A DNA stretch of 64,000 nucleotides, taken from positions 6,262,001 through 6,326,000 of the forward strand of contig JAPNXP010000003.1 of NCBI GenBank assembly GCA_028753945.1. The letters are read 5' to 3'. The notes below the pieces were generated by a model. That model made no database searches. It was not told where the DNA came from and worked only from the letters and a program-made list of their open reading frames with translations. This document shows, piece after piece, positions 5,436 to 64,000 of the stretch. The stretch is from Hexactinellida sp. DTS-2022. Lineage: Eukaryota; Porifera; Hexactinellida. Numbering within the stretch: the stretch's first letter is position 1; the number at the start of each line of letters is the position of its first letter. The position numbers and the translations under genes were made by a program.

Positions 5436-8400
5436 GTACAATACATAGCACATTATATACAGTAGACCTTCTTTGGAATTCGAAATTCATTATATCAACC
5501 AATAACATAATGAAACATTCATTCTTGCTATATCTAGGACATTCTACAAAGGAGAACCTCGTTAGTATTCGCAATTTATATATCCACTTTATAACATTGT
5601 ACGCATTTTGCGTACAATATATAGCACACTATATACAGTAGCCCTTCGTTGGGATTCGAAATTCATTATATCAACCAATAACATAATGAAACATTCATAC
5701 TTGCTATATCTAGGACATTCTACAATGGAGAACCTCGTTAGTATTCGCAATTTATATATCCACTTTATAACATTGTACGCATTTTGCGTACAATACATAG
5801 CACATTATATACAGTAGCCCTTCTTTGGGATTCAATATTAACTATATCAACCATAACATAATGAAACATTCATCCTTTCTATATCTAGGACATTCTACAA
5901 TGGAGAACCTCGTTAGTATTCGCAATTTATATATCCACTTTATAACATTGTACGCATTTTGCGTACAATACATGGCACATTATATACAGTAGACCTTCGT
6001 TGGGATTCAAAATTCATTATATCAACTAATAACCTAATGAAACATTCATACTTGCTATATCTAGGACATTCTACAAAGGAGAACCTCGTTAGTATTCGCA
6101 ATTTATATATCCACTTTATAACATTGTACGCATTTTGCGTACAATACATAGCACATTATATACAGTAGACCTTCTTTGGGATTCAATATTAACTATATCA
6201 ACCATAACATAATGAAACATTCATCCTTTCTATATCTAGGACATTCTACAAAGGAGAACCTCGTTAGTATTCGCAATTTATATATCCACTTTATAATATT
6301 GTACGCATTTTGCGTACAATACATAGCACATTATATACAGTAGACCTTCTTTGGGCTTCAATATTAACTATATCAACCATAACATAATGAAACATTCATA
6401 CTTGCTATATCTAGGACATTCTACAAAGGAGAACCTCGTTGGTATTCGCAATTTATATATCCACTTTATAACATTGTGCGCATTTGAGTACAATATATAG
6501 CACATTATACACAGTAGACCTTCTTTGGGATTAGAAATTCATTATATCAACCAATAACATAATGAAACATTGATACTTTCTATATCTAGGACATTCTACA
6601 AAGGAGAACCTCGTTAGTATTCGCTATTTATATATCCACTTTATAACATTGTACGCATTTTGCGTACAATATATAGCACACTATATACAGTAGCCCTTCG
6701 TTGGGATTCAAAATTCATTATATCAACTAATAACCTAATGAAACATTCATACTTGCTATATCTAGGACATTCTACAAAGGAGAACCTCGTTAGTATTCGC
6801 AATTTATATATCCACTTTATAACATTGTACGCATTTTGCGTACAATACATAGCACATTATATACAGTAGACCTTCTTTGGGATTCAATATTAACTATATC
6901 AACCATAACATAATGAAACATTCATCCTTTCTATATCTAGGACATTCTACAAAGGAGAACCTCGTTAGTATTCGCTATTTATATATCCACTCTATAACAT
7001 TGTACGCATTTTGCGTACAATATATAGCGCATTATATACAGTAGACCTTCTTTGGCATTCGAAATTCATTATATCAACCAATAACATAATGAAACATTCA
7101 TACTTGCTTATCTAGGACATTCTACAAAGGAGAACCTCGTTAGTATTCGCTATTTATATATCCACTTTATAACATTGTACGCATTTTGCGTACAATATAT
7201 AGCACACTATATACAGTAGCCCTTCGTTGGGATTCGAAATTCATTATATCAACCAATAACATAATGAAACATTCATACTTGCTATATCTAGGACATTCTA
7301 CAATGGAGAACCTCGTTAGTATTCGCTATTTATATATCCACTCTATAACATTGTACGCATTTTGCGTACAATATATAGCACATTATATACAGTAGACCTT
7401 CGTTGGGATTCAAAATTCATTATATCAACCAATAACATAATGAAACATTGATACTTTCTATATCTAGGACATTCTACAAAGGAGAACTTCGTTGGTATTC
7501 GCAATTTATATATCCACTTTATAACATTGTACGCATTTGAGTACAATATATAGCACATTATATACAGTAGACCTTCGTTGGGATTCAAAATTCATTATAT
7601 CAACCAATAACATAATGAAACATTCATACTTGCTATATCTAGGACATTCTACAAAGGAGAACCTCGTTAGTATTCGCAATTTATATATCCACTTTATAAC
7701 ATTGTACGCATTTTGCGTACAATACATAGCACATTATATACAGTAGACCTTCTTTGGAATTCGAAATTCATTATATCAACCAATAACATAATGAAACATT
7801 CGTACTTTCTATATCTAAGACATTCTACAATGGAGATCCTCGTTAGTATTCGCTATTTATATATCCACTTTATAACATTGTACGCATTTTGCGTACAATA
7901 TATAGCACATTATAAACAGTAGCCCTTCGTTGGGATTCGAAATTCATTATATCAACCAATAACATAATGAAACATTCATACTTTCTATATCTAGGACATT
8001 CTACAAAGGAGAACCTCGTTAGTATTCGCTATTTATATATCCACTTTATAACATTGTACGCATTTTGCGTACAATATATAGCACACTATATACAGTAGCC
8101 CTTCGTTGGGATTCAAAATTCATTATATCAACTAATAACCTAATGAAACATTCATTCTTGCTATATGTAGGACATTCTACAAAGGAGAACCTCGTTAGTA
8201 TTCGCAATTTATATATCCACTTTATAACATTGTACGCATTTTGCGTACAATATATAGCACACTATATACAGTAGCCCTTCGTTGGGATTCGAAATTCATT
8301 ATATCAACCAATAACATAATGAAACATTCATACTTGCTATATCTAGGACATTCTACAATGGAGAACCTCGTTAGTATTCGCAATTTATATATCCACTTTA

Positions 8401-8812
8401 TAACATTGTACGCATTTTGCGTACAATACATAGCACATTATATACAGTAGACCTTCTTTGGGATTCAATATTAACTATATCAACCATAACATAATGAAAC
8501 ATTCATCCTTTCTATATCTAGGACATTCTACAAAGGAGAACCTCGTTAGGATTCGCTATTTATATATCCACTTTATAACATTGTACGCATTTTGCGTACA
8601 ATATATGGCACATTATATACAGTAGACCTTCGTTGGGATTCGAAATTTATTATATCAACCAATAACATAATGAAACATTCATACTTTCTATATCTAAGAC
8701 ATTCTACAAAGGAGAACCTCGTTAGTATTCGCAATTTATATATCCACTTTACAACATTGTACGCATTTGAGTACAATATATGGCACATTGTATACAGTAG
8801 ACCTTCTTTGGG
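5436..8812. repeat. S/N/V/H mosaic, first part
   Basis: Monomers rich in the S features CACACTATATAC and TAGCCC, V features (CAATATTAACTATATCAACC, CATCC) and H features (AACTAATAACCTAATG), with J near 7028 and a few diverged GAGTAC monomers. The part 6695-8450 (1756 bp, 10 monomers) matches 11786-13541 at an offset of 5091 (29 monomers) with few substitutions, for example CTATATGTAGG near 8163 against CTATATCTAGG. Confidence 0.82.
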
Positions 8813-11800
8813 ATTCGAAATTCATTATATCAACCAATAACATAATGAAACATTCGTACTTTCTATATCTAAGACATTCTACAATGGAGATCCTCGTTAG
8901 TATTCGCTATTTATATATCCACTTTATAACATTGTACGCATTTTGCGTACAATATATAGCACATTATAAACAGTAGCCCTTCGTTGGGATTCGAAATTCA
9001 TTATATCAACCAATAACATAATGAAACATTCATACTTTCTATATCTAGGACATTCTACAAAGGAGAACCTCGTTAGTATTCGCTATTTATATATCCACTT
9101 TATAACATTGTACGCATTTTGCGTACAATATATAGCACACTATATACAGTAGCCCTTCGTTGGGATTCAAAATTCATTATATCAACTAATAACCTAATGA
9201 AACATTCATTCTTGCTATATCTAGGACATTCTACAAAGGAGAACCTCGTTAGTATTCGCAATTTATATATCCACTTTATAACATTGTACGCATTTTGCGT
9301 ACAATATATAGCACACTATATACAGTAGCCCTTCGTTGGGATTCGAAATTCATTATATCAACCAATAACATAATGAAACATTCATACTTGCTATATCTAG
9401 GACATTCTACAATGGAGAACCTCGTTAGTATTCGCAATTTATATATCCACTTTATAACATTGTACGCATTTTGCGTACAATACATAGCACATTATATACA
9501 GTAGCCCTTCTTTGGGATTCAATATTAACTATATCAACCATAACATAATGAAACATTCATCCTTTCTATATCTAGGACATTCTACAATGGAGAACCTCGT
9601 TAGTATTCGCAATTTATATATCCACTTTATAACATTGTACGCATTTTGCGTACAATACATGGCACATTATATACAGTAGACCTTCGTTGGGATTCAAAAT
9701 TCATTATATCAACTAATAACCTAATGAAACATTCATACTTGCTATATCTAGGACATTCTACAAAGGAGAACCTCGTTAGTATTCGCAATTTATATATCCA
9801 CTTTATAACATTGTACGCATTTTGCGTACAATACATAGCACATTATATACAGTAGACCTTCTTTGGGATTCAATATTAACTATATCAACCATAACATAAT
9901 GAAACATTCATCCTTTCTATATCTAGGACATTCTACAAAGGAGAACCTCGTTAGTATTCGCAATTTATATATCCACTTTATAATATTGTACGCATTTTGC
10001 GTACAATACATAGCACATTATATACAGTAGACCTTCTTTGGGCTTCAATATTAACTATATCAACCATAACATAATGAAACATTCATACTTGCTATATCTA
10101 GGACATTCTACAAAGGAGAACCTCGTTGGTATTCGCAATTTATATATCCACTTTATAACATTGTGCGCATTTGAGTACAATATATAGCACATTATACACA
10201 GTAGACCTTCTTTGGGATTAGAAATTCATTATATCAACCAATAACATAATGAAACATTGATACTTTCTATATCTAGGACATTCTACAAAGGAGAACCTCG
10301 TTAGTATTCGCTATTTATATATCCACTTTATAACATTGTACGCATTTTGCGTACAATATATGGCACATTATATACAGTAGACCTTCGTTGGGATTCGAAA
10401 TTTATTATATCAACCAATAACATAATGAAACATTCATACTTTCTATATCTAAGACATTCTACAAAGGAGAACCTCGTTAGTATTCGCAATTTATATATCC
10501 ACTTTACAACATTGTACGCATTTGAGTACAATATATGGCACATTGTATACAGTAGACCTTCTTTGGGATTCGAAATTCATTATATCAACCAATAACACAA
10601 TGAAACATTCATACTTGCTTATCTAGGACATTCTACAAAGGAGAACTTCGTTGGTATTCGCAATTTATATATCCACTTTATAACATTGTACGCATTTGAG
10701 TACAATATATAGCACATTATATACAGTAGACCTTCGTTGGGATTCAAAATTCATTATATCAACCAATAACATAATGAAACATTCATACTTTCTATATCTA
10801 GGACATTCTACAATGGAGAACCTCGTTAGTATTCGCTATTTATATATCCACTTTATAACATTGTACGCATTTTTCGTACAATATATAGCACATTATATAC
10901 AGTAGACCTTCGTTGGGATTCAAAATTCATTATATCAACCAATAACATAATGAAACATTGATACTTTCTATATCTAGGACATTCTACAAAGGAGAACTTC
11001 GTTGGTATTCGCAATTTATATATCCACTTTATAACATTGTACGCATTTGAGTACAATATATAGCACATTATATACAGTAGACCTTCGTTGGGATTCAAAA
11101 TTCATTATATCAACCAATAACATAATGAAACATTCATACTTTCTATATCTAGGACATTCTACAAAGGAGAACCTCGTTAGTATTCGCTATTTATATATCC
11201 ACTTTATAACATTGTACGCATTTTGCGTACAATATATAGCACACTATATACAGTAGCCCTTCGTTGGGATTCAAAATTCATTATATCAACTAATAACCTA
11301 ATGAAACATTCATACTTGCTATATCTAGGACATTCTACAAAGGAGAACCTCGTTAGTATTCGCAATTTATATATCCACTTTATAACATTGTACGCATTTT
11401 GCGTACAATATATAGCACACTATATACAGTAGCCCTTCGTTGGGATTCGAAATTCATTATATCAACCAATAACATAATGAAACATTCATACTTGCTATAT
11501 CTAGGACATTCTACAATGGAGAACCTCGTTAGTATTCGCAATTTATATATCCACTTTATAACATTGTACGCATTTTGCGTACAATACATAGCACATTATA
11601 TACAGTAGACCTTCGTTGGGATTCGAAATTCATTATATCAACCAATAACATAATGAAACATTCATACTTGCTATATCTAGGACATTCTACAATGGAGAAC
11701 CTCGTTAGTATTCGCAATTTATATATCCACTTTATAACATTGTACGCATTTTGCGTACAATACATGGCACATTATATACAGTAGACCTTCGTTGGGATTC

Positions 11801-12496
11801 AAAATTCATTATATCAACTAATAACCTAATGAAACATTCATGCTTGCTATATCTAGGACATTCTACAAAGGAGAACCTCGTTAGTATTCGCAATTTATAT
11901 ATCCACTTTATAACATTGTACGCATTTTGCGTACAATACATAGCACATTATATACAGTAGACCTTCTTTGGGATTCAATATTAACTATATCAACCATAAC
12001 ATAATGAAACATTCATCCTTTCTATATCTAGGACATTCTACAAAGGAGAACCTCGTTAGTATTCGCTATTTATATATCCACTCTATAACATTGTACGCAT
12101 TTTGCGTACAATATATAGCGCATTATATACAGTAGACCTTCTTTGGCATTCGAAATTCATTATATCAACCAATAACATAATGAAACATTCATACTTGCTT
12201 ATCTAGGACATTCTACAAAGGAGAACCTCGTTAGTATTCGCTATTTATATATCCACTTTATAACATTGTACGCATTTTGCGTACAATATATAGCACACTA
12301 TATACAGTAGCCCTTCGTTGGGATTCGAAATTCATTATATCAACCAATAACATAATGAAACATTCATACTTGCTATATCTAGGACATTCTACAATGGAGA
12401 ACCTCGTTAGTATTCGCTATTTATATATCCACTCTATAACATTGTACGCATTTTGCGTACAATATATAGCACATTATATACAGTAGACCTTCGTTG
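8813..12496. repeat. 3.68-kb segmental duplication, copy 1 (21 monomers)
   Basis: This stretch matches 12850-16533 at a constant offset of 4037 bases (23 monomers). The flanks mismatch immediately at 8812/12849 and 12497/16534. The only internal difference I noticed is CATGCTTGC at 11841 against CATACTTGC in the other copy. It contains SH chimeras, N, V, H, one J and several diverged GAGTAC monomers, so distinctive monomers mark the copy clearly. Confidence 0.88.
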
Positions 12497-12849
12497 GGAT
12501 TCAAAATTCATTATATCAACCAATAACATAATGAAACATTGATACTTTCTATATCTAGGACATTCTACAAAGGAGAACTTCGTTGGTATTCGCAATTTAT
12601 ATATCCACTTTATAACATTGTACGCATTTGAGTACAATATATAGCACATTATATACAGTAGACCTTCGTTGGGATTCAAAATTCATTATATCAACCAATA
12701 ACATAATGAAACATTCATACTTGCTATATCTAGGACATTCTACAAAGGAGAACCTCGTTAGTATTCGCAATTTATATATCCACTTTATAACATTGTACGC
12801 ATTTTGCGTACAATACATAGCACATTATATACAGTAGACCTTCTTTGGA

Positions 12850-15800
12850 ATTCGAAATTCATTATATCAACCAATAACATAATGAAACATTCGTACTTTC
12901 TATATCTAAGACATTCTACAATGGAGATCCTCGTTAGTATTCGCTATTTATATATCCACTTTATAACATTGTACGCATTTTGCGTACAATATATAGCACA
13001 TTATAAACAGTAGCCCTTCGTTGGGATTCGAAATTCATTATATCAACCAATAACATAATGAAACATTCATACTTTCTATATCTAGGACATTCTACAAAGG
13101 AGAACCTCGTTAGTATTCGCTATTTATATATCCACTTTATAACATTGTACGCATTTTGCGTACAATATATAGCACACTATATACAGTAGCCCTTCGTTGG
13201 GATTCAAAATTCATTATATCAACTAATAACCTAATGAAACATTCATTCTTGCTATATCTAGGACATTCTACAAAGGAGAACCTCGTTAGTATTCGCAATT
13301 TATATATCCACTTTATAACATTGTACGCATTTTGCGTACAATATATAGCACACTATATACAGTAGCCCTTCGTTGGGATTCGAAATTCATTATATCAACC
13401 AATAACATAATGAAACATTCATACTTGCTATATCTAGGACATTCTACAATGGAGAACCTCGTTAGTATTCGCAATTTATATATCCACTTTATAACATTGT
13501 ACGCATTTTGCGTACAATACATAGCACATTATATACAGTAGCCCTTCTTTGGGATTCAATATTAACTATATCAACCATAACATAATGAAACATTCATCCT
13601 TTCTATATCTAGGACATTCTACAATGGAGAACCTCGTTAGTATTCGCAATTTATATATCCACTTTATAACATTGTACGCATTTTGCGTACAATACATGGC
13701 ACATTATATACAGTAGACCTTCGTTGGGATTCAAAATTCATTATATCAACTAATAACCTAATGAAACATTCATACTTGCTATATCTAGGACATTCTACAA
13801 AGGAGAACCTCGTTAGTATTCGCAATTTATATATCCACTTTATAACATTGTACGCATTTTGCGTACAATACATAGCACATTATATACAGTAGACCTTCTT
13901 TGGGATTCAATATTAACTATATCAACCATAACATAATGAAACATTCATCCTTTCTATATCTAGGACATTCTACAAAGGAGAACCTCGTTAGTATTCGCAA
14001 TTTATATATCCACTTTATAATATTGTACGCATTTTGCGTACAATACATAGCACATTATATACAGTAGACCTTCTTTGGGCTTCAATATTAACTATATCAA
14101 CCATAACATAATGAAACATTCATACTTGCTATATCTAGGACATTCTACAAAGGAGAACCTCGTTGGTATTCGCAATTTATATATCCACTTTATAACATTG
14201 TGCGCATTTGAGTACAATATATAGCACATTATACACAGTAGACCTTCTTTGGGATTAGAAATTCATTATATCAACCAATAACATAATGAAACATTGATAC
14301 TTTCTATATCTAGGACATTCTACAAAGGAGAACCTCGTTAGTATTCGCTATTTATATATCCACTTTATAACATTGTACGCATTTTGCGTACAATATATGG
14401 CACATTATATACAGTAGACCTTCGTTGGGATTCGAAATTTATTATATCAACCAATAACATAATGAAACATTCATACTTTCTATATCTAAGACATTCTACA
14501 AAGGAGAACCTCGTTAGTATTCGCAATTTATATATCCACTTTACAACATTGTACGCATTTGAGTACAATATATGGCACATTGTATACAGTAGACCTTCTT
14601 TGGGATTCGAAATTCATTATATCAACCAATAACACAATGAAACATTCATACTTGCTTATCTAGGACATTCTACAAAGGAGAACTTCGTTGGTATTCGCAA
14701 TTTATATATCCACTTTATAACATTGTACGCATTTGAGTACAATATATAGCACATTATATACAGTAGACCTTCGTTGGGATTCAAAATTCATTATATCAAC
14801 CAATAACATAATGAAACATTCATACTTTCTATATCTAGGACATTCTACAATGGAGAACCTCGTTAGTATTCGCTATTTATATATCCACTTTATAACATTG
14901 TACGCATTTTTCGTACAATATATAGCACATTATATACAGTAGACCTTCGTTGGGATTCAAAATTCATTATATCAACCAATAACATAATGAAACATTGATA
15001 CTTTCTATATCTAGGACATTCTACAAAGGAGAACTTCGTTGGTATTCGCAATTTATATATCCACTTTATAACATTGTACGCATTTGAGTACAATATATAG
15101 CACATTATATACAGTAGACCTTCGTTGGGATTCAAAATTCATTATATCAACCAATAACATAATGAAACATTCATACTTTCTATATCTAGGACATTCTACA
15201 AAGGAGAACCTCGTTAGTATTCGCTATTTATATATCCACTTTATAACATTGTACGCATTTTGCGTACAATATATAGCACACTATATACAGTAGCCCTTCG
15301 TTGGGATTCAAAATTCATTATATCAACTAATAACCTAATGAAACATTCATACTTGCTATATCTAGGACATTCTACAAAGGAGAACCTCGTTAGTATTCGC
15401 AATTTATATATCCACTTTATAACATTGTACGCATTTTGCGTACAATATATAGCACACTATATACAGTAGCCCTTCGTTGGGATTCGAAATTCATTATATC
15501 AACCAATAACATAATGAAACATTCATACTTGCTATATCTAGGACATTCTACAATGGAGAACCTCGTTAGTATTCGCAATTTATATATCCACTTTATAACA
15601 TTGTACGCATTTTGCGTACAATACATAGCACATTATATACAGTAGACCTTCGTTGGGATTCGAAATTCATTATATCAACCAATAACATAATGAAACATTC
15701 ATACTTGCTATATCTAGGACATTCTACAATGGAGAACCTCGTTAGTATTCGCAATTTATATATCCACTTTATAACATTGTACGCATTTTGCGTACAATAC

Positions 15801-16533
15801 ATGGCACATTATATACAGTAGACCTTCGTTGGGATTCAAAATTCATTATATCAACTAATAACCTAATGAAACATTCATACTTGCTATATCTAGGACATTC
15901 TACAAAGGAGAACCTCGTTAGTATTCGCAATTTATATATCCACTTTATAACATTGTACGCATTTTGCGTACAATACATAGCACATTATATACAGTAGACC
16001 TTCTTTGGGATTCAATATTAACTATATCAACCATAACATAATGAAACATTCATCCTTTCTATATCTAGGACATTCTACAAAGGAGAACCTCGTTAGTATT
16101 CGCTATTTATATATCCACTCTATAACATTGTACGCATTTTGCGTACAATATATAGCGCATTATATACAGTAGACCTTCTTTGGCATTCGAAATTCATTAT
16201 ATCAACCAATAACATAATGAAACATTCATACTTGCTTATCTAGGACATTCTACAAAGGAGAACCTCGTTAGTATTCGCTATTTATATATCCACTTTATAA
16301 CATTGTACGCATTTTGCGTACAATATATAGCACACTATATACAGTAGCCCTTCGTTGGGATTCGAAATTCATTATATCAACCAATAACATAATGAAACAT
16401 TCATACTTGCTATATCTAGGACATTCTACAATGGAGAACCTCGTTAGTATTCGCTATTTATATATCCACTCTATAACATTGTACGCATTTTGCGTACAAT
16501 ATATAGCACATTATATACAGTAGACCTTCGTTG
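12850..16533. repeat. 3.68-kb segmental duplication, copy 2 (21 monomers)
   Basis: Near-identical partner of 8813-12496, the next copy in the same orientation, separated from it by only two monomers. Near identity over 3.7 kb points to a recent unequal exchange or amplification. The right end passes directly into G-type sequence (TTGAGATTCG), a different neighbour from copy 1. Confidence 0.88.
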
Positions 16534-20704: not shown

Positions 20705-23700
20705 GTACAATATATAGCACACTATATACAGTAGCCCTTCGTTGGGATTCAAAATTCATTATATCAACTAATAACCTAATGAAACATTCATACTTGCTAT
20801 ATCTAGGACATTCTACAAAGGAGAACCTCGTTAGTATTCGCAATTTATATATCCACTTTATAACATTGTACGCATTTTGCGTACAATATATAGCACACTA
20901 TATACAGTAGCCCTTCGTGGGGATTCGAAATTCATTATATCAACCAATAACATAATGAAACATTCATACTTGCTATATCTAGGACATTCTACAAAGGAGA
21001 ACCTCGTTAGTATTCGCAATTTATATATCCACTTTATAACATTGTACGCATTTTGCATACAATACATAGCACATTATATACAGTAGACCTTCGTTGGGAT
21101 TCGAAATTCATTATATCAACCAATAACATAATGAAACATTCATACTTGCTATATCTAGGACATTCTACAATGGAGAACCTCGTTAGTATTCGCAATTTAT
21201 ATATCCACTTTATAACATTGTACGCATTTTGCGTACAATACATAGCACATTATATACAGTAGCCCTTCTTTGGGATTCAATATTAACTATATCAACCAAT
21301 AACATAATGAAACATTCATACTTGCTATATCTAGGACATTCTACAATGGAGAACCTCGTTAGTATTCGCAATTTATATATCCACTTTATAACATTGTACG
21401 CATTTTGCGTACAATACATAGCACATTATATACAGTAGCCCTTCTTTGGGATTCAATATTAACTATATCAACCATAACATAATGAAACATTCATCCTTTC
21501 TATATCTAGGACATTCTACAATGGAGAACCTCGTTAGTATTCGCAATTTATATATCCACTTTATAACATTGTACGCATTTTGCATACAATACATAGCACA
21601 TTATATACAGTAGACCTTCGTTGGGATTCGAAATTCATTATATCAACCAATAACATAATGAAACATTCATACTTGCTATATCTAGGACATTCTACAATGG
21701 AGAACCTCGTTAGTATTCGCAATTTATATATCCACTTTATAACATTGTACGCATTTTGCGTACAATACATAGCACATTATATACAGTAGCCCTTCTTTGG
21801 GATTCAATATTAACTATATCAACCATAACATAATGAAACATTCATCCTTTCTATATCTAGGACATTCTACAATGGAGAACCTCGTTAGTATTCGCAATTT
21901 ATATATCCACTTTATAACATTGTACGCATTTTGCGTACAATACATGGCACATTATATACAGTAGACCTTCGTTGGGATTCAAAATTCATTATATCAACTA
22001 ATAACCTAATGAAACATTCATACTTGCTATATCTAGGACATTCTACAAAGGAGAACCTCGTTAGTATTCGCAATTTATATATCCACTTTATAACATTGTA
22101 CGCATTTTGCGTACAATACATAGCACATTATATACAGTAGACCTTCTTTGGGATTCAATATTAACTATATCAACCATAACATAATGAAACATTCATCCTT
22201 TCTATATCTAGGACATTCTACAATGGAGAACCTCGTTAGTATTCGCAATTTATATATCCACTTTATAACATTGTACGCATTTTGCGTACAATACATGGCA
22301 CATTATATACAGTAGACCTTCGTTGGGATTCAAAATTCATTATATCAACTAATAACCTAATGAAACATTCATACTTGCTATATCTAGGACATTCTACAAA
22401 GGAGAACCTCGTTAGTATTCGCAATTTATATATCCACTTTATAACATTGTACGCATTTTGCGTACAATACATAGCGCATTATATGCAGTAGACCTTCGTT
22501 GGGATTCAAAATTCATTATGTCAACCAATAACATTATGAAACATTCATACTTTCTATATCTAGGACATTCTACAAAGGAGAACCTCGTTAGTATTCGCTA
22601 TTTATATATCCACTTTATAACATTGTACGCATTTTGCGTACAATATATAGCACACTATATACAGTAGCCCTTCGTTGGGATTCGAAATTCATTATATCAA
22701 CCAATAACATAATGAAACATTCATACTTGCTATATCTAGGACATTCTACAATGGAGAACCTCGTTAGTATTCGCTATTTATATATCCACTCTATAACATT
22801 GTACGCATTTTGCGTACAATATATAGCACATTATATACAGTAGACCTTCGTTGAGATTCGAAATTCATTATATCAACCAATAACATAATGAAACATTCAT
22901 ACTTGCTTATCTAGGACATTCTACAAAGGAGAACCTCGTTAGTATTCGCTATTTATTTATCCACTTTATAACATTGTACGCATTTTGCGTACAATAAATA
23001 GCACATTATATACAGTAGACCTTCGTTGGGATTAGAAATTCATTATATCAACCAATAACTTAATGAAACATTCATACTTGCTATATCTAGGACATTCTAC
23101 AAAGGAGAACCTCGTTTGTATTCGCAATTTATATATCCACTTTATAACATTGTACGCATTTTTCGTACAATATATAGCACATTATATACAGTAGACCTTC
23201 GTTGGGATTCAAAATTCATTATATCAACCAATAACATAATGAAACATTGATACTTTCTATATCTAGGACATTCTACAAAGGAGAACTTCGTTGGTATTCG
23301 CAATTTATATATCCACTTTATAACATTGTACGCATTTGAGTACAATATATAGCACATTATATACAGTAGACCTTCGTTGGGATTCAAAATTCATTATATC
23401 AACCAATAACATAATGAAACATTCATACTTTCTATATCTAGGACATTCTACAAAGGAGAACCTCGTTAGTATTCGCTATTTATATATCCACTTTATAACA
23501 TTGTACGCATTTTGCGTACAATATATAGCACACTATATACAGTAGCCCTTCGTTGGGATTCAAAATTCATTATATCAACTAATAACCTAATGAAACATTC
23601 ATACTTGCTATATCTAGGACATTCTACAAAGGAGAACCTCGTTAGTATTCGCAATTTATATATCCACTTTATAACATTGTACGCATTTTGCGTACAATAT

Positions 23701-27208: not shown

Positions 27209-27233
27209 ACATAGCACATTATATACAGTAGAC

Positions 27234-46100: not shown

Positions 46101-46313
46101 ATTTATATATCCACTTTATAACATTGTACGCATTTTGCGTACAATATATAGCACATTATATACAGTAGACCTTCTTTGGGATTAGAAATTCATTATATCA
46201 ACCAATAACATAAGAAACATTCGTACTTGCTTAAACTAGGATATTCTACAAAGGAGAACCTCGTTGGTATTCGCTATTTATATATCCACTTTATAACATT
46301 GTACGCATTTTGC
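43158..46313. repeat. 9-monomer HOR type A, 1578 bp, two copies
   Basis: Order per unit: C G L K G K G L K, lengths 176+175+176+175+175+175+175+176+175 = 1578. Copies are 43158-44735 and 44736-46313. A private change, ATACCCAC in the first L monomer, is present in both copies (43656 and 45234) and in the upstream relative at 41375, proving common descent. Confidence 0.92.
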
Positions 46314-50500: not shown

Positions 50501-52281
50501 ACTTTATAACATTGTACGCATTTTGCGTACAATATATAGCACATTATATACAGTAGACCTTCTTTGGGTTTAGAAATTCATTATATCAACCAATAACATA
50601 AGAAACATTCGTACTTGCTTAAACTAGGATATTCTACAAAGGAGAACCTCGTTGGTATTCGCTATTTATATATCCACTTTATAACATTGTACGCATTTTG
50701 CGTACAATATATAGCGCATTATATGCAGTAGACCTTCGTTGGGATTCAAAATTCATTATGTCAACCAATAACATTATGAAACATTCATACTTTCTATATC
50801 TAGGACATTCTACAAAGGAGAACCTCGTTAGTATTCGCTATTTATATATCCACTTTATAACATTGTACGCATTTTGCGTACAATATATAGCACACTATAT
50901 ACAGTAGCCCTTCGTTGGGATTCGAAATTCATTATATCAACCAATAACATAATGAAACATTCATACTTGCTATATCTAGGACATTCTACAATGGAGAACC
51001 TCGTTAGTATTCGCTATTTATATATCCACTCTATAACATTGTACGCATTTTGCGTACAATAAATAGCACATTATATACAGTAGACCTTCGTTGAGATTCG
51101 AAATTCATTATATCAACCAATAACATAATGAAACATTCATACTTGCTTATCTAGGACATTCTACAAAGGAGAACCTCGTTAGTATTCGCTATTTATTTAT
51201 CCACTTTATAACATTGTACGCATTTTGCGTACAATAAATAGCACATTATATACAGTAGACCTTCGTTGGGATTAGAAATTCATTATATCAACCAATAACT
51301 TAATGAAACATTCATACTTGCTATATCTAGGACATTCTACAAAGGAGAACCTCGTTTGTATTCGCAATTTATATATCCACTTTATAACATTGTACGCATT
51401 TTGCGTACAATATATAGCACATTATATACAGTAGACCTTCTTTGGGATTAGAAATTCATTATATCAACCAATAACATAAGAAACATTCGTACTTGCTTAA
51501 ACTAGGATATTCTACAAAGGAGAACCTCGTTGGTATTCGCTATTTATATATCCACTTTATAACATTGTACGCATTTTGCGTACAATATATAGCGCATTAT
51601 ATGCAGTAGACCTTCGTTGGGATTCAAAATTCATTATGTCAACCAATAACATTATGAAACATTCATACTTTCTATATCTAGGACATTCTACAAAGGAGAA
51701 CCTCGTTAGTATTCGCTATTTATATATCCACTCTATAACATTGTACGCATTTTGCGTACAATATATAGCACATTATATACAGTAGACCTTCGTTGAGATT
51801 CGAAATTCATTATATCAACCAATAACATAATGAAACATTCATATTTGCTTATCTAGGACATTCTACAAAGGAGAACCTCGTTAGTATTCGCTATTTATTT
51901 ATCCACTTTATAACATTGTACGCATTTTGCGTACAATAAATAGCACATTATATACAGTAGACCTTCGTTGGGATTAGAAATTCATTATATCAACCAAATA
52001 CTTAATGAAACATTCATACTTGCTATATCTAGGACATTCTACAAAGGAGAACCTCGTTTGTATTCGCAATTTATATATCCACTTTATAACATTGTACGCA
52101 TTTTGCGTACAATATATAGCACATTATATACAGTAGACCTTCTTTGGGTTTAGAAATTCATTATATCAACCAATAACATAAGAAACATTCGTACTTGCTT
52201 AAACTAGGATATTCTACAAAGGAGAACCTCGTTGGTATTCGCTATTTATATATCCACTTTATAACATTGTACGCATTTTGC
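47542..52281. repeat. 9-monomer HOR type B, 1580 bp, three copies
   Basis: Order per unit: C S G L K C G L' K', lengths 176+176+175+176+175+176+175+176+175 = 1580. Copies are 47542-49121, 49122-50701 and 50702-52281. All keep the marker variants CATATTTGC, CCAAATACTTAATG and GGGTTTAG. Only a handful of substitutions separate them, for example CATTAGCCC near 49323, CTATAAAGG near 49583 and AATAAATAGC in place of AATATATAGC near 51060. This is the most homogeneous stretch of the window and probably the youngest amplification. Confidence 0.94.
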
Positions 52282-54913
52282 GTACAATATATAGCGCATT
52301 ATATGCAGTAGACCTTCGTTGGGATTCAAAATTCATTATGTCAACCAATAACAATGAAACATTCATACTTTCTATATCTAGGACATTCTACAAAGGAGAA
52401 CCTCGTTAGTATTCGCTATATATATATTTCCACTTTCTAACATTGTACGCATTTTGAGTACAATATATGGCACATTATATACAGTAGACCTTCTTTGGGA
52501 TTCGAAATTCATTATATCAACCAATAACAATGAAACATACATACTTTCTAGATCTAGGACATTCTACAAAGGAGAACCTCGTTAGTATTCGCTATTTATA
52601 TATCCACTCTATAACATTGTACGCATTTTGCGTACAATATATAGCACATTATATACAGTAGACCTTCGTTGAGATTCGAAATTCATTATATCAACCAATA
52701 ACATAATGAAACATTCATACTTGCTTATCTAGGACATTCTACAAAGGAGAACCTCGTTAGTATTCGCTATTTATTTATCCACTTTATAACATTGTACGCA
52801 TTTTGCGTACAATAAATAGCACATTATATACAGTAGACCTTCGTTGGGATTAGAAATTCATTATATCAACCAATAACATAATGAAACATTCATACTTGCT
52901 TATCTAGGACATTCTACAAAGGAGAACCTCGTTAGTATTCGCTATTTATTTATCCACTTTATAACATTGTACGCATTTTGCGTACAATAAATAGCGCATT
53001 ATATGCAGTAGACCTTCGTTGGGATTCAAAATTCATTATGTCAACCAATAACATTATGAAACATTCATACTTTCTATATCTAGGACATTCTACAAAGGAG
53101 AACCTCGTTAGTATTCGCTATTTATATATCCACTCTATAACATTGTACGCATTTTGAGTACAATATATAGCACATTATACACAGTAGACCTTCGTTGGGA
53201 TTCGAAATTTATTATATCAACCAATAACATAATGAAACATTCATACTTTCTATATCTAAGACATTCTACAATGGAGATCCTCGTTAGTATTCGCTATTTA
53301 TATATCCACTTTATAACATTGTACGCATTTTGCGTACAATATATAGCACATTATATACAGTAGCCCTTCGTTGGGATTCAAAATTCATTATGTCAACCAA
53401 TAACATTATGAAACATTCATACTTTCTATATCTAGGACATTCTACAAAGGAGAACCTCGTTAGTATTCGCTATTTATATATCCACTCTATAACATTGTAC
53501 GCATTTTGAGTACAATACATAGCACATTATATACAGTAGACCTTCTTTGGAATTCGAAATTCATTATATCAACCAATAACATAATGAAACATTCGTACTT
53601 TCTATATCTAAGACATTCTACAATGGAGATCCTCGTTAGTATTCGCTATTTATATATCCACTTTATAACATTGTACGCATTTTGCGTACAATATATAGCA
53701 CATTATATACAGTAGCCCTTCGTTGGGATTCGAAATTCATTATATCAACCAATAACATAATGAAACATTCATACTTTCTATATCTAGGACATTCTACAAA
53801 GGAGAACCTCGTTAGTATTCGCTATTTATATATCCACTTTATAACATTGTACGCATTTTGCGTACAATATATAGCACACTATATACAGTAGCCCTTCGTT
53901 GGCATTAGAAATTCATTATATCAACCAATAACATAATGAAACATTCATACTTTCTATATCTAGGACATTCTACAATGGAGATCCTCGTTAGTATTCGCTA
54001 TTTATATATCCACTTTATAACATTGTACGCATTTTGCGTACAATATATAGCACATTATATACAGTAGACCTTCTTTGGAATTCGAAATTCATTATATCAA
54101 CCAATAACATAATGAAACATTCGTACTTTCTATATCTAAGACATTCTACAATGGAGAACCTCGTTAGTATTCGCTATTTATATATCCACTTTATTTCATT
54201 GTACGCATTTTGCGTACAATATATAGCACATTATACACAGTAGACCTTCTTTGGGATTCAAAATTCATTATATCAACCAATAACATAAGAAACATTAATA
54301 CTCGCTTATCTAGGACATTCTACAAAGGAGAACCTCGTTAGTATTCGCTATTTATATATCCACTTTATAACATTGTACGCATTTTGCGTACAATATATAG
54401 TACATTATATACAGTAAACCTTCGTTAGGATTACAAATTCATTTTATCAACCATTAACATAATGAAACATTCGTACTTGCTATATCTAGGACATTCTACA
54501 AAGGAGAACCTCGTTAGTATTCGCTATATATATCCACTTTATAACATTGTACGCATTTTGCGTACAATACATAGCACACTATATACAGTAGCCCTTCGTT
54601 GGGATTCAAAATTCATTATATCAACCAATAACACAATGAAACATTCATACTTGCTATATCCAGGACATTCTACAATGGAGAACCTCGTTAGTATTCGCTA
54701 TTTATATATCCACTTTATAACATTGTACGCATTTTGCGTACAATACATAGCACATTATATACAGTAGACCTTCTTTGGAATTCGAAATTTATTATATCAA
54801 CCAATAACATAATGAAACATTCATACTTGCTATATCTCGGACATTCTACAATGGAGAACCTCGTTAGTATTCGCTATTTATATTTCCACTTTATAACATT
54901 GTACGCATTTTGC
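52282..54913. repeat. Diverged, indel-bearing monomer zone
   Basis: Homogeneity collapses right after the third 1580-bp copy. Seen here: AACAATGAAAC (bases lost, near 52350 and 52527), an expanded CTATATATATATTTCCACTTTC near 52418, CTAGATCTAGG near 52549, AACATTAATACTCGC near 54293, GTAAACCTTCGTTAGG near 54414, ATTTTATCAACCATTAAC near 54442, a two-base shortening CTATATATATCC near 54525, and GAGTAC palindrome spacers near 52456, 53157 and 53509. All are still recognisable monomers in the same orientation. Such monomers typically escape homogenisation and are older. Confidence 0.87.
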
Positions 54914-56317
54914 GTACAATATATAGCACACTATATACAGTAGCCCTTCGTTGGGATTCAAAATTCATTATATCAACTAATAACCTAATGAAACATTCAT
55001 ACTTGCTATATCTAGGACATTCTACAAAGGAGAACCTCGTTAGTATTCGCAATTTATATATCCACTTTATAACATTGTACGCATTTTGCGTACAATATAT
55101 AGCACACTATATACAGTAGCCCTTCGTTGGGATTCGAAATTCATTATATCAACCAATAACATAATGAAACATTCATACTTGCTATATCTAGGACATTCTA
55201 CAATGGAGAACCTCGTTAGTATTCGCAATTTATATATCCACTTTATAACATTGTACGCATTTTGCGTACAATACATAGCACATTATATACAGTAGACCTT
55301 CTTTGGGATTCAATATTAACTATATCAACCATAACATAATGAAACATTCATCCTTTCTATATCTAGGACATTCTACAATGGAGAACCTCGTTAGTATTCG
55401 CAATTTATATATCCACTTTATAACATTGTACGCATTTTGCGTACAATACATGGCACATTATATACAGTAGACCTTCGTTGGGATTCAAAATTCATTATAT
55501 CAACTAATAACCTAATGAAACATTCATACTTGCTATATCTAGGACATTCTACAAAGGAGAACCTCGTTAGTATTCGCAATTTATATATCCACTTTATAAC
55601 ATTGTACGCATTTTGCGTACAATACATAGCACATTATATACAGTAGACCTTCTTTGGGATTCAATATTAACTATATCAACCATAACATAATGAAACATTC
55701 ATCCTTTCTATATCTAGGACATTCTACAAAGGAGAACCTCGTTAGTATTCGCAATTTATATATCCACTTTATAATATTGTACGCATTTTGCGTACAATAC
55801 ATAGCACATTATATACAGTAGACCTTCTTTGGGATTCAATATTAACTATATCAACCATAACATAATGAAACATTCATACTTGCTATATCTAGGACATTCT
55901 ACAAAGGAGAACCTCGTTAGTATTCGCTATTTATATATCCACTCTATAACATTGTACGCATTTTGCGTACAATATATAGCGCATTATATACAGTAGACCT
56001 TCTTTGGCATTCGAAATTCATTATATCAACCAATAACATAATGAAACATTCATACTTGCTTATCTAGGACATTCTACAAAGGAGAACCTCGTTAGTATTC
56101 GCTATTTATATATCCACTTTATAACATTGTACGCATTTTGCGTACAATATATAGCACACTATATACAGTAGCCCTTCGTTGGGATTCGAAATTCATTATA
56201 TCAACCAATAACATAATGAAACATTCATACTTGCTATATCTAGGACATTCTACAATGGAGAACCTCGTTAGTATTCGCTATTTATATATCCACTCTATAA
56301 CATTGTACGCATTTTGC
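54914..56317. repeat. SH-Sn-V-H-V-V-J-S run, copy of the 12-mer-type region
   Basis: Order: SH chimera, Sn, V, H, V, V with CATACTTG ending, J, S. It resembles the runs near 33.8-34.9 kb and 23.5-24.9 kb, showing that the V-H-V-U-J cassette also exists downstream of the diverged zone. The fifth V differs from U by keeping TATCAACCATAAC. Confidence 0.82.
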
Positions 56318-59300
56318 GTACAATATATAGCACATTATATACAGTAGACCTTCGTTGAGATTCGAAATTCATTATATCAACCAATAACATAATGAAACAT
56401 TCATACTTGCTTATCTAGGACATTCTACAAAGGAGAACCTCGTTAGTATTCGCTATTTATTTATCCACTTTATAACATTGTACGCATTTTGCGTACAATA
56501 AATAGCACATTATATACAGTAGACCTTCGTTGGGATTAGAAATTCATTATATCAACCAATAACTTAATGAAACATTCATACTTGCTATATCTAGGACATT
56601 CTACAAAGGAGAACCTCGTTTGTATTCGCAATTTATATATCCACTTTATAACATTGTACGCATTTTGCGTACAATATATAGCACATTATATACAGTAGAC
56701 CTTCTTTGGGATTAGAAATTCATTATATCAACCAATAACATAAGAAACATTCGTACTTGCTTAAACTAGGATATTCTACAAAGGAGAACCTCGTTGGTAT
56801 TCGCTATTTATATATCCACTTTATAACATTGTACGCATTTTGCGTACAATATATAGCACATTATATACAGTAGACCTTCGTTGAGATTCGAAATTCATTA
56901 TATCAACCAATAACATAATGAAACATTCATACTTGCTTATCTAGGACATTCTACAAAGGAGAACCTCGTTAGTATTCGCTATTTATTTATCCACTTTATA
57001 ACATTGTACGCATTTTGCGTACAATAAATAGCACATTATATACAGTAGACCTTCGTTGGGATTAGAAATTCATTATATCAACCAATAACTTAATGAAACA
57101 TTCATACTTGCTATATCTAGGACATTCTACAAAGGAGAACCTCGTTTGTATTCGCAATTTATATATCCACTTTATAACATTGTACGCATTTTGCGTACAA
57201 TATATAGCACATTATATACAGTAGACCTTCTTTGGGATTAGAAATTCATTATATCAACCAATAACATAAGATACATTCGTACTTGCTTAAACTAGGATAT
57301 TCTACAAAGGAGAACCTCGTTGGTATTCGCTATTTATATATCCACTTTATAACATTGTACGCATTTTGCGTACAATATATAGCGCATTATATGCAGTAGA
57401 CCTTCGTTGGGATTCAAAATTCATTATGTCAACCAATAACATTATGAAACATTCATACTTTCTATATCTAGGACATTCTACAAAGGAGAACCTCGTTAGT
57501 ATTCGCTATTTATATATCCACTTTATAACATTGTACGCATTTTGCGTACAATATATAGCACACTATATACAGTAGCCCTTCGTTGGGATTCGAAATTCAT
57601 TATATCAACCAATAACATAATGAAACATTCATACTTGCTATATCTAGGACATTCTACAATGGAGAACCTCGTTAGTATTCGCTATTTATATATCCACTCT
57701 ATAACATTGTACGCATTTTGCGTACAATATATAGCACATTATATACAGTAGACCTTCGTTGAGATTCGAAATTCATTATATCAACCAATAACATAATGAA
57801 ACATTCATACTTGCTTATCTAGGACATTCTACAAAGGAGAACCTCGTTAGTATTCGCTATTTATTTATCCACTTTATAACATTGTACGCATTTTGCGTAC
57901 AATAAATAGCACATTATATACAGTAGACCTTCGTTGGGATTAGAAATTCATTATATCAACCAATAACTTAATGAAACATTCATACTTGCTATATCTAGGA
58001 CATTCTACATAGGAGGACCTCGTTGGTATTCGCTATTTATATATCCACTTTATAACATTGTACGCATTTTGCGTACAATATATAGCACATTATATACAGT
58101 AGACCTTCTTTGGGATTAGAAATTCATTATATCAACCAATAACATAAGAAACATTCGTACTTGCTTAAACTAGGATATTCTACAAAGGAGAACCTCGTTG
58201 GTATTCGCTATTTATATATCCACTTTATAACATTGTACGCATTTTGCGTACAATATATAGCACATTATATACAGTAGACCTTCGTTGAGATTCGAAATTC
58301 ATTATATCAACCAATAACATAATGAAACATTCATACTTGCTTATCTAGGACATTCTACAAAGGAGAACCTCGTTAGTATTCGCTATTTATTTATCCACTT
58401 TATAACATTGTACGCATTTTGCGTACAATAAATAGCACATTATATACAGTAGACCTTCGTTGGGATTAGAAATTCATTATATCAACCAATAACTTAATGA
58501 AACATTCATACTTGCTATATCTAGGACATTCTACAAAGGAGAACCTCGTTTGTATTCGCAATTTATATATCCACTTTATAACATTGTACGCATTTTGCGT
58601 ACAATAAATAGCACATTATATACAGTAGACCTTCGTTGGGATTAGAAATTCATTATATCAACCAATAACTTAATGAAACATTCATACTTGCTATATCTAG
58701 GACATTCTACAAAGGAGAACCTCGTTTGTATTCGCAATTTATATATCCACTTTATAACATTGTACGCATTTTGCGTACAATATATAGCACATTATATACA
58801 GTAGACCTTCTTTGGGATTAGAAATTCATTATATCAACCAATAACATAAGAAACATTCGTACTTGCTTAAACTAGGATATTCTACAAAGGAGAACCTCGT
58901 TGGTATTCGCTATTTATATATCCACTTTATAACATTGTACGCATTTTGCGTACAATATATAGCACACTATATACAGTAGCCCTTCGTTGGGATTCGAAAT
59001 TCATTATATCAACCAATAACATAATGAAACATTCATACTTGCTATATCTAGGACATTCTACAATGGAGAACCTCGTTAGTATTCGCTATTTATATATCCA
59101 CTCTATAACATTGTACGCATTTTGCGTACAATATATAGCACATTATATACAGTAGACCTTCGTTGAGATTCGAAATTCATTATATCAACCAATAACATAA
59201 TGAAACATTCATACTTGCTTATCTAGGACATTCTACAAAGGAGAACCTCGTTAGTATTCGCTATTTATTTATCCACTTTATAACATTGTACGCATTTTGC

Positions 59301-60703
59301 GTACAATAAATAGCACATTATATACAGTAGACCTTCGTTGGGATTAGAAATTCATTATATCAACCAATAACTTAATGAAACATTCATACTTGCTATATCT
59401 AGGACATTCTACAAAGGAGAACCTCGTTAGTATTCGCTATTTATATATCCACTTTATAACATTGTACGCATTTTGCGTACAATATATAGCACACTATATA
59501 CAGTAGCCCTTCGTTGGGATTCGAAATTCATTATATCAACCAATAACATAATGAAACATTCATACTTGCTATATCTAGGACATTCTACAATGGAGAACCT
59601 CGTTAGTATTCGCTATTTATATATCCACTCTATAACATTGTACGCATTTTGCGTACAATATATAGCACATTATATACAGTAGACCTTCGTTGAGATTCGA
59701 AATTCATTATATCAACCAATAACATAATGAAACATTCATACTTGCTTATCTAGGACATTCTACAAAGGAGAACCTCGTTAGTATTCGCTATTTATTTATC
59801 CACTTTATAACATTGTACGCATTTTGCGTACAATAAATAGCACATTATATACAGTAGACCTTCGTTGGGATTAGAAATTCATTATATCAACCAATAACTT
59901 AATGAAACATTCATACTTGCTATATCTAGGACATTCTACAAAGGAGAACCTCGTTTGTATTCGCAATTTATATATCCACTTTATAACATTGTACGCATTT
60001 TGCGTACAATATATAGCACATTATATACAGTAGACCTTCTTTGGGATTAGAAATTCATTATATCAACCAATAACATAAGAAACATTCGTACTTGCTTAAA
60101 CTAGGATATTCTACAAAGGAGAACCTCGTTGGTATTCGCTATTTATATATCCACTTTATAACATTGTACGCATTTTGCGTACAATATATAGCACATTATA
60201 TACAGTAGACCTTCGTTGTGATTCGAAATTCATTATATCAACCAATAACATAAGAAACATTCGTACTTGCTTAAACTAGGATATTCTACAAAGGAGAACC
60301 TCGTTGGTATTCGCTATTTATATATCCACTTTATAAGATTGTACGCATTTTGCGTACAATATATAGCACATTATATACAGTAGACCTTCGTTGAGATTCG
60401 AAATTCATTATATCAACCAATAACATAATGAAACATTCATACTTGCTTATCTAGGACATTCTACAAAGGAGAACCTCGTTAGTATTCGCTATTTATTTAT
60501 CCACTTTATAACATTGTACGCATTTTGCGTACAATAAATAGCACATTATATACAGTAGACCTTCTTTGGGATTCAATATTAACTATATCAACCATAACAT
60601 AATGAAACATTCATACTTGCTATATCTAGGACATTCTACAAAGGAGAACCTCGTTAGTATTCGCTATTTATATATCCACTCTATAACATTGTACGCATTT
60701 TGC
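56318..60703. repeat. G-L-K mosaic, downstream copy
   Basis: Order: G L K G L K C S G L K G L L K S G L S G L K GK-hybrid G L/V-hybrid. It begins with the module G-L-K-G-L-K-C (56318-57545). The TAGGAGG L variant recurs at 58011. Two L monomers lie in direct tandem at about 58423-58774. A recombinant G/K monomer lies at 60179-60353 and a recombinant L/V monomer at about 60529-60703. Confidence 0.82.
60179..60353 (+). repeat. Recombinant monomer, G front and K back
   Basis: The first part reads TTCGTTGTGATTCGAAATTC, one base from the G class, while the rest reads CATAAGAAACATTCG, GCTTAAACTAGGATATTC and CGTTGGTATTCGC, the K class. The switch lies between about 60222 and 60252. It replaces the usual K with its TTCT box-like motif by one with TTCG. 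Gene conversion or crossover within the monomer explains it; independent mutation of three linked positions is less likely. Confidence 0.75.
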
Positions 60704-62807
60704 GTACAATATATAGCGCATTATATACAGTAGACCTTCTTTGGCATTCGAAATTCATTATATCAACCAATAACATAATGAAACATTCATACTTGCTTAT
60801 CTAGGACATTCTACAAAGGAGAACCTCGTTAGTATTCGCTATTTATATATCCACTTTATAACATTGTACGCATTTTGCGTACAATATATAGCACACTATA
60901 TACAGTAGCCCTTCGTTGGGATTCGAAATTCATTATATCAACCAATAACCTAATGAAACATTCATACTTGCTATATCTAGGACATTCTACAATGGAGAAC
61001 CTCGTTAGTATTCGTTATTTATATATCCACTCTATAACATTGTACGCATTTTGCGTACAATATATAGCACATTATATACAGTAGACCTTCGTTGAGATTC
61101 GAAATTCATTATATCAACCAATAACATAATGAAACATTCATACTTGCTTATCTAGGACATTCTACAAAGGAGAACCTCGTTAGTATTCGCTATTTATTTA
61201 TCCACTTTATAACATTGTACGCATTTTGCGTACAATAAATAGCACATTATATACAGTAGACCTTCGTTGGGATTAGAAATTCATTATATCAACCAATAAC
61301 TTAATGAAACATTCATACTTGCTATATCTAGGACATTCTACAAAGGAGAACCTCGTTTGTATTCGCAATTTATATATCCACTTTATAACATTGTACGCAT
61401 TTTGCGTACAATATATAGCACATTATATACAGTAGACCTTCTTTGGGATTAGAAATTCATTATATCAACCAATAACATAAGAAACATTCGTACTTGCTTA
61501 AACTAGGATATTCTACAAAGGAGAACCTCGTTGGTATTCGCTATTTATATATCCACTTTATAACATTGTACGCATTTTGCGTACAATACATAGCACATTA
61601 TATACAGTAGACCTTCTTTGGGATTCAATATTAACTATATCAACCATAACATAATGAAACATTCATCCTTTCTATATCTAGGACATTCTACAAAGGAGAA
61701 CCTCGTTAGTATTCGCAATTTATATATCCACTTTATAATATTGTACGCATTTTGCGTACAATACATAGCACATTATATACAGTTGACCTTCTTTGGGATT
61801 CAATATTAACTATATCAACCATAACATAATGAAACATTCATACTTGCTATATCTAGGACATTCTACAAAGGAGAACCTCGTTAGTATTCGCTATTTATAT
61901 ATCCACTCTATAACATTGTACGCATTTTGCGTACAATATATAGCGCATTATATACAGTAGACCTTCTTTGGCATTCGAAATTCATTATATCAACCAATAA
62001 CATAATGAAACATTCATACTTGCTTATCTAGGACATTCTACAAAGGAGAACCTCGTTAGTATTCGCTATTTATATATCCACTTTATAACATTGTACGCAT
62101 TTTGCGTACAATATATAGCACACTATATACAGTAGCCCTTCGTTGGGATTCGAAATTCATTATATCAACCAATAACCTAATGAAACATTCATACTTGCTA
62201 TATCTAGGACATTCTACAATGGAGAACCTCGTTAGTATTCGCTATTTATATATCCACTCTATAACATTGTACGCATTTTGCGTACAATATATAGCACATT
62301 ATATACAGTAGACCTTCGTTGAGATTCGAAATTCATTATATCAACCAATAACATAATGAAACATTCATACTTGCTTATCTAGGACATTCTACAAAGGAGA
62401 ACCTCGTTAGTATTCGCTATTTATTTATCCACTTTATAACATTGTACGCATTTTGCGTACAATAAATAGCACATTATATACAGTAGACCTTCGTTGGGAT
62501 TAGAAATTCATTATATCAACCAATAACTTAATGAAACATTCATACTTGCTATATCTAGGGCATTCTACAAAGGAGAACCTCGTTTGTATTCGCAATTTAT
62601 ATATCCACTTTATAACATTGTACGCATTTTGCGTACAATATATAGCACATTATATACAGTAGACCTTCTTTGGGATTAGAAATTCATTATATCAACCAAT
62701 AACATAAGAAACATTCGTACTTGCTTAAACTAGGATATTCTACAAAGGAGAACCTCGTTGGTATTCGCTATTTATATATCCACTTTATAACATTGTACGC
62801 ATTTTGC
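60704..62807. repeat. 7-monomer repeat J-S-G-L-K-V-V, 1227 bp
   Basis: Copy 1 is J S G L K V V(U-like), 60704-61930. Copy 2 repeats J S G L K at 61931-62807 and then continues with G instead of V. The S monomer in both copies has AACCTAATG in place of AACATAATG, a shared private change that confirms duplication. CGTTATTT near 61014 is private to copy 1. Confidence 0.85.
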
Positions 62808-64000
62808 GTACAATATATAGCACATTATATACAGTAGACCTTCGTTGAGATTCGAAATTCATTATATCAACCAATAACATAATGAAACATTCATACTTGC
62901 TTATCTAGGACATTCTACAAAGGAGAACCTCGTTAGTATTCGCTATTTATTTATCCACTTTATAACATTGTACGCATTTTGCGTACAATAAATAGCACAT
63001 TATATACAGTAGACCTTCGTTGGGATTAGAAATTCATTATATCAACCAATAACTTAATGAAACATTCATACTTGCTATATCTAGGACATTCTACAAAGGA
63101 GAACCTCGTTTGTATTCGCAATTTATATATCCACTTTATAACATTGTACGCATTTTGCGTACAATATATAGCACATTATATACAGTAGACCTTCTTTGGG
63201 ATTAGAAATTCATTATATCAACCAATAACATAAGAAACATTCGTACTTGCTTAAACTAGGATATTCTACAAAGGAGAACCTCGTTGGTATTCGCTATTTA
63301 TATATCCACTTTATAACATTGTACGCATTTTGCGTACAATATATAGCGCATTATATGCAGTAGACCTTCGTTGGGATTCAAAATTCATTATGTCAACCAA
63401 TAACATTATGAAACATTCATACTTTCTATATCTAGGACATTCTACAAAGGAGAACCTCGTTAGTATTCGCTATTTATATATCCACTTTATAACATTGTAC
63501 GCATTTTGCGTACAATATATAGCACACTATATACAGTAGCCCTTCGTTGGGATTCGAAATTCATTATATCAACCAATAACATAATGAAACATTCATCCTT
63601 TCTATATCTAGGACATTCTACAAAGGAGAACCTCGTTAGTATTCGCAATTTATATATCCACTTTATAATATTGTACGCATTTTGCGTACAATACATAGCA
63701 CATTATATACAGTTGACCTTCTTTGGGATTCAATATTAACTATATCAACCATAACATAATGAAACATTCATACTTGCTATATCTAGGACATTCTACAAAG
63801 GAGAACCTCGTTAGTATTCGCTATTTATATATCCACCCTATAACATTGTACGCATTTTGCGTACAATATATAGCGCATTATATACAGTAGACCTTCTTTG
63901 GCATTCGAAATTCATTATATCAACCAATAACATAATGAAACATTCATACTTGCTTATCTAGGACATTCTACAAAGGAGAACCTCGTTAGTATTCGCTATT
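62808..64000. repeat. G-L-K-C-S/V-U-J run to the window end
   Basis: Order: G L K C S/V-chimera, U-like with CAGTTGACC (near 63711), J cut by the window end. CAGTTGACC also occurs near 61782 (offset 1930, 11 monomers). CCACCCTATAAC near 63836 is private. The last base lies inside a monomer, so the array continues. Confidence 0.82.

Follow-up and report, generated by a model that had tools for sequence, protein, structure and literature searches.

The satellite array and its 23-bp dyad

The window, by which we mean the whole 64,000-nucleotide stretch analysed here (C12:6262001-6326000 in a 112-Mb glass sponge assembly of 18 contigs), is a single tandem satellite array extending from 1 to 64000 on the plus strand (TRF period 176, 364.8 copies, 94% match). 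Wrap-around alignment of this 176-bp dimeric monomer gave 364 complete monomers, 109 of them distinct. Each monomer has a place for a 23-bp dyad, ATTGTACGCATTTTGCGTACAAT, called the B box below. The exact copy closest to the start of the interval covered by a preliminary description (5436-64000) is at 5420-5442, and the next is 176 bp further, at 5596-5618. Between them, at 5509-5531, the other ~88-bp half of the monomer carries a changed counterpart of the dyad, the A box AATGAAACATTCATTCTTGCTAT, recognized by reading and by alignment of the halves.

The preliminary description had reported this palindrome in nearly every monomer, and the counts agree: the exact 23-mer is present in 331 of the 364 complete monomers of the window and in 312/333 within the interval just given. 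The remaining 33 dyads belong to five variants, so that the window has six dyad haplotypes in all. The commonest broken form, ATTGTACGCA-TTTGAGTACAAT (16/364 monomers; one copy, read from the sequence, is at 5245-5266), has a spacer one base short and an altered inner right arm, with the outer half-sites intact. A G17>A change (ATTGTACGCATTTTGCATACAAT) was found in two copies, one of them at 21041-21063. Matches to the dyad at up to 3 mismatches do not occur in any of 100 dinucleotide shuffles. The variable flank beside a constant dyad is also as had been described: over the whole window, the 30 bp that start 10 bp past the dyad fall into 34 haplotypes (18 with at least 3 copies), compared with six for the dyad.

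A perfect dyad kept among otherwise differing monomers had been taken to suggest selection, for example on a dimeric protein-binding site. Among the 109 distinct monomers, the mean non-majority frequency is 0.010 for the 20 arm bases, 0.028 for the loop and 0.043 elsewhere, where the median is 0.009. Among cyclic 23-bp windows the dyad ranks 1/176 for low variability, a rank shared with the window shifted by one base (2/176 under a tie-counting rule). Since the dyad is the least variable window and its collapsed arms stay below the monomer average, the C12 array lacks the uniform variability that would have spoken against selection on the arms. Invariant columns are more frequent in the arms than outside the dyad (16/20 versus 70/153; Mann-Whitney P-value = 0.0036, with columns that are not independent), and many non-dyad columns of this array are likewise invariant. 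The left arm is the least variable 10-mer in the window; variants at its inner end put the right arm at rank 17 among all monomers and 29 among unique ones.

The dyad in other arrays of the genome

The palindrome reaches beyond the window into further arrays of the genome, where the exact 23-mer occurs 4,995 times (2,600 + 2,395) and, read backwards, 0 times. We took 15 array samples from 11 contigs, comprising 793 complete monomers, of which 364 come from C12 alone; loci L072-L080 are outside this set. As to ASCERTAINMENT, the majority of the 15 samples were reached via near-dyad patterns, and two queries with dyad-free DNA served as a check. Four classes of unit length were found: 88 bp (C6, C11, C15), 154 bp (two kinds, one on C8 and C18 left, the other on C13 left and C18 right), 158 bp (C17) and ~176 bp (C12, C9, C16, C1). 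There is typically one dyad per unit in all of them. The dyad is exact in 593/793 sampled monomers and in 262/429 outside C12, and exact copies are a minority in the samples from C1 (20/59), C8 (10/25), C17 (8/24) and C18 left (7/25). Many dyads of the two 10-kb C1 samples have an altered inner right arm; other stretches of C1 are richer in exact dyads, and the first 100 places listed genome-wide are all on this contig.

The two dyad-free queries led to an array on C2 and a right-end array on C13, plus short arrays and fragments. All 17 units read on C13 right (17/17) have the exact dyad. The C2 array has 2/8 exact dyads, 4/8 with A10>T alone, in which the 9-bp arms are intact, and 2/8 degraded at the array margin; both 9-bp arms are thus kept in 6/8. 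Exact dyads account for 13/17 in a second C15 stretch (L080) and 3/4 in a short array at C12:6.099 Mb. The dyad may also have originated from transposon ends; the few copies read outside large arrays are satellite fragments, with one (L073), two (L078) and four (L077, all four inner) changes to the dyad. At L078 (~150-345, C1:386 kb), parts of the satellite are mutually inverted within one fragment.

We compared consensus sequences over 12 arrays and found the dyad near-fixed while the rest of the unit diverges (divergence 0.011 versus 0.207, the latter inflated by ragged, gapped ends of the flank alignment; rank 1/122 windows). Several arrays other than those of the C12 group have a longer symmetry, ATATTGTACGCA-TTT-TGCGTACAATAT. 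Compared by eye with the 176-bp unit, ~22 bp are missing from each 154-bp type, just upstream of the dyad in one and from ~7 bp downstream of it in the other.

A recent common origin, or conversion between chromosomes, could also explain why the dyads are nearly identical. All arrays would then descend recently from one seed, with the dyad unchanged by chance or kept alike by exchange between chromosomes. Such neutral homogenization would account for a conserved block that slightly exceeds the dyad (TATAA before and ATATAG after it in most aligned arrays), and several arrays share inner-arm variants, A10>T for example, as ancestry or exchange would give. However, the flanks have diverged or been lost and the box has not. 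Together with the distribution of variants described below, this makes the neutral explanation rather unlikely in our view.

Chromosomal location of the arrays

The arrays lie no more than ~0.4 Mb from contig ends on C2, C6, C8, C9, C11, C12, C13, C15, C16, C17 and C18. The C1 array is internal (9.88-10.03 of 17.64 Mb), and C1 might, as a guess, be a fusion chromosome. By position only, this arrangement fits near-terminal centromeres or subtelomeric heterochromatin. The satellite family is present near both ends of C13 (86-95 kb; 5.41-5.43 of 5.64 Mb) and of C18 (~0.16-0.32; 6.53-6.60 of 6.62 Mb), and the opposite ends of each carry different 154-bp types. Arrays at two ends are hard to square with a single centromere per chromosome. 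No member of the family on C3, C4, C5, C7 or C14 is among the matches listed. The starts of C4, C5, C7, C10, C14, C17 and C18 (L050, L051, L067-L071) share a similar repeat (...GCTGGGAACGAA...), perhaps a subtelomeric unit. A count of 18 chromosomes recurs among published demosponge assemblies, according to three abstracts. An NHL-repeat protein is encoded ~75 kb beyond the window (L049).

Variation of outer and inner dyad positions

Inside single arrays the dyad is mostly unremarkable, as expected under neutral homogenization. Its rank for low variability ranges from 2/176 (C12) to 71/88 (C15) and is at or below 0.05 in 1/15 samples (C12); in C8 and C15 its variability slightly exceeds that of the remaining unit. 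The proposition that it is the least variable window in every array was rejected, being true of C12 only. Ranks combined over arrays by Fisher's method gave P-value = 0.026 for all monomers, 0.029 for unique monomers and 0.19 for variant types.

When arrays are pooled, constraint appears to sit on the outer half-sites ATTGTAC...GTACAAT. Their 7+7 columns, a division chosen post hoc from the variant list, have 0.181 variant types per column-array versus 0.311 elsewhere (random rotations, P-value = 0.0005). Without C12 and C1 the values are 0.137 versus 0.215 (P-value = 0.02 for variant types, 0.001 by non-majority frequency), and the variant-type count for the whole dyad gives P-value = 0.10. 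Both half-sites are intact in 718/793 monomers (360/429 outside C12), compared with 62% on average when 7+7 columns are put at any place in the unit, and exceed this control in 14/15 samples, the exception being C8. The six inner columns show no such depletion relative to the rest (P-value 0.67-0.94 over the tests run). The selection proposed earlier is partly supported, by the near-invariant consensus across array types, the pooled depletion of variants in the outer half-sites and the rarity of short spacings; constraint on all 20 arm bases is not supported, as it does not extend to the inner pairs. An outer part that is kept and inner positions that vary within the same 23 bp are not predicted by block conversion, which counts against the neutral explanation.

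The dyad might instead be maintained as a structure, a selected cruciform or hairpin that would mark the array when extruded, as has been suggested for centromeres rich in dyads. The 23-mer is well suited to this, with a predicted hairpin of -9.3 kcal/mol versus -1.5 for shuffles (z -5.6). However, 183 of the 263 one-sided arm changes affect the loop-proximal pairs 8-10, the opening of which costs most stability, and the hairpin of the C1 variant falls from -9.3 to -3.5 kcal/mol. Compensated double changes, which the preliminary description would have taken as support alongside rarity of one-arm changes, amount to 1 pair cell among 793 monomers x 10 pairs; hairpin covariation inside arrays was rejected on this count. 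Moreover, the outer-arm sequence itself is conserved, beyond what pairing demands. A structural role for the dyad therefore seems quite improbable, even with the symmetry of the A box described below.

The spacing of the half-sites is near-fixed as well. Perfect 8-bp arms with a spacer of 0-4 (the range searched) occur at 13 genome sites, all with spacer 4, versus spacer 5 in the 4,995 exact 23-mers. A loop that begins with C or G between perfect arms was found at 3 genome sites. Single-base variants of an otherwise exact dyad are similarly rare at mirror positions (C7, 38 sites; G17, 29 sites). Near-fixed spacing, tolerated inner changes and the lack of compensation are better explained by a dimeric protein that would read ATTGTAC/GTACAAT than by a hairpin.

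A and B boxes in two ~88-bp halves

Units of 154-184 bp consist of two related ~88-bp halves, one with the dyad and the other with the A box at the corresponding position. The half alignment runs through similar flanks (taacat/tataat before; mostly tatagcacatt or ctaggacatt after), which makes the halves homologous with a different box in each. The A box is generally ATTGAAA...TTTCTAT-like. A long form, ATTGAAA(G/C)CATTTGTCCTTTCTAT, is present in C13 right and C17, with close forms in C2, C8, C18 left and the short C12 array; a shorter form, AATGAAACATTCATACTT(T/G)CTAT, is found in most of the 176-bp group, C13 left and C18 right. Exact copies of the long form number 307 in the genome, all on one strand; among the first 100 listed, C9 has two (C9:2513392, C9:2513918), C10 one (C10:168679) and C17 the remainder (C17:4538364 onward).

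In A boxes, 4-7 of the 9 mirror positions can pair. Two double changes that distinguish the C17 form from the dyad leave pairing intact, which arises in ~2% of simulated histories (P-value ~0.02; a simple simulation of a single post hoc comparison). This partial symmetry would be in keeping with selection on a cruciform or hairpin, as considered above. For the neutral explanation the two boxes provide a control of equal location and age: the B box is near-fixed, whereas its A-box partner within these units differs from array to array.

Insertions and junctions near the dyad

The preliminary description also offered a role of the palindrome in exchange itself. On this account the palindrome would be a preferred site of breaks, and exchange and conversion initiated at these would maintain the uniformity of the dyad. 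We found 7/19 junctions within 15 bp of the dyad centre versus ~3.6 expected (P-value = 0.05), a borderline result selected after looking, with junction phases and independence judged by eye. Insertions adjoin the dyad in L040 and L072, and in both 154-bp types the missing ~22 bp lie within ~10 bp of it, upstream in one and downstream in the other (by eye). However, the AT-rich flank beside the dyad may simply be a transposon target. A part in exchange is only hinted at, and we regard a recombination or insertion hotspot as an improbable cause of the dyad's uniformity.

The L072 insertion (~76-193, C2:6.233 Mb) is ~116 bp long, has inverted ends (ccctcg...cgaggg) and abuts the right edge of the dyad. 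At L041 on C1, apparently the same ~564-bp insertion is present twice (~5556-6119 and 6995-7558) with 875 bp of satellite between, apparently co-amplified with the surrounding units.

A candidate site for a dimeric protein

We suggest, giving the proposal about an even chance, that the dyad is a CENP-B-box-like candidate site for a dimeric protein in a terminal or centromere-type satellite family. A two-fold symmetric protein, presumably a homodimer, would contact the inverted half-sites ATTGTAC and GTACAAT, held at a fixed distance by the 5 bp between 9-bp arms. Arrays losing the site would be less often amplified or kept, and for this reason the box would outlast unequal exchange, surviving about once per unit as unit length and flanks change. 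The 154-176-bp units may have arisen by duplication of an ancestral ~88-bp half, one copy of which would have kept the strict B box and the other diverged to the looser, still partly symmetric A box. The protein, its binding as a dimer, the mode of selection and any role in centromeres or heterochromatin are what we infer from these sequence patterns.

The likeness to the CENP-B box is one of kind. Identity with it was rejected, as its essential bases (TTCG....A..CGGG) give 0 matches in the window. Among the 15 array consensuses no fit exceeds 5-6 of 9 essential bases, a level that shuffles reach as well. CENP-B_N domain matches were found at 23 places in the genome, none linked to the dyad; the same domain family also matches in two bacterial control genomes. 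One of the 23 matches falls in a 339-aa open frame on the minus strand (L063, 619-1638), which reads like a pogo-type gene.

A bolder version of the dimeric-site reading would be that a distant animal has independently evolved its own equivalent of the paired CENP-B and pJalpha boxes of primates. Strict B and relaxed A dyads in alternating ~88-bp halves would be read by two related dimeric proteins, or by one with two affinities, and binding would decide which satellite variants spread over chromosomes. We consider this speculation unlikely.

Sequence-specific satellite boxes are known to be firmly tied to a protein in few lineages, and whether satellite DNA sequence matters beyond its repetitiveness is a long-standing question. 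Here sequence specificity can be tested on a dyad that persists over four unit lengths, the diverged paralogous box within those units serving as an internal control. A dimeric protein is predicted to make 7+7 bp contacts and to find the inner bases dispensable.

Comparison with known satellite boxes

Among the matches listed for the arm sequence there is no satellite paper by title, and among those listed for sponges or Porifera, dyads and conserved boxes (titles and abstract starts) no title names this satellite. The A/B alternation of halves recalls alpha satellite. According to passages of PMC4585704, monomers with a CENP-B box (B-type) and with pJalpha (A-type) alternate regularly in great-ape alpha satellite, and monomeric arrays exist too. 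Judged from this source and from sequence likeness, the two satellites would share a dimeric organization with a protein-recognition box in one monomer type and a different box in the other. In contrast, the box described here is a dyad with near-fixed spacing, the alternating halves are ~88 bp long, the sampled monomeric 88-bp arrays hold the strict box, and the CENP-B-box sequence is absent.

Meloidogyne satellites, as presented in passages of PMC3694981 and PMC9673304, contain a conserved Box 1 or CENP-B box-like motif, and a role in breaks and exchange has been proposed for such boxes. As in the sponge, one short motif is near-fixed among satellites of low identity in one genome, with a possible link to junctions. 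The passages do not describe the Meloidogyne boxes as palindromic, a word that does not occur in PMC9673304, whereas ours is a dyad; the Meloidogyne box has a weak likeness to the CENP-B box, and here there is none above chance.

Centromeres rich in dyad symmetry and non-B DNA (Kasinathan and Henikoff, as described in a passage of PMC9070824) have short inverted repeats, under 10 bp, that can form cruciforms. The sponge dyad is likewise a short inverted repeat with this predicted capacity, but it is conserved as a single specific sequence, and its variation lies in the loop-proximal pairs. Overall, the satellite belongs with the known kind that carries a conserved box, and its own features are the dyad, the near-fixed spacing and the paralogous box in the partner half.
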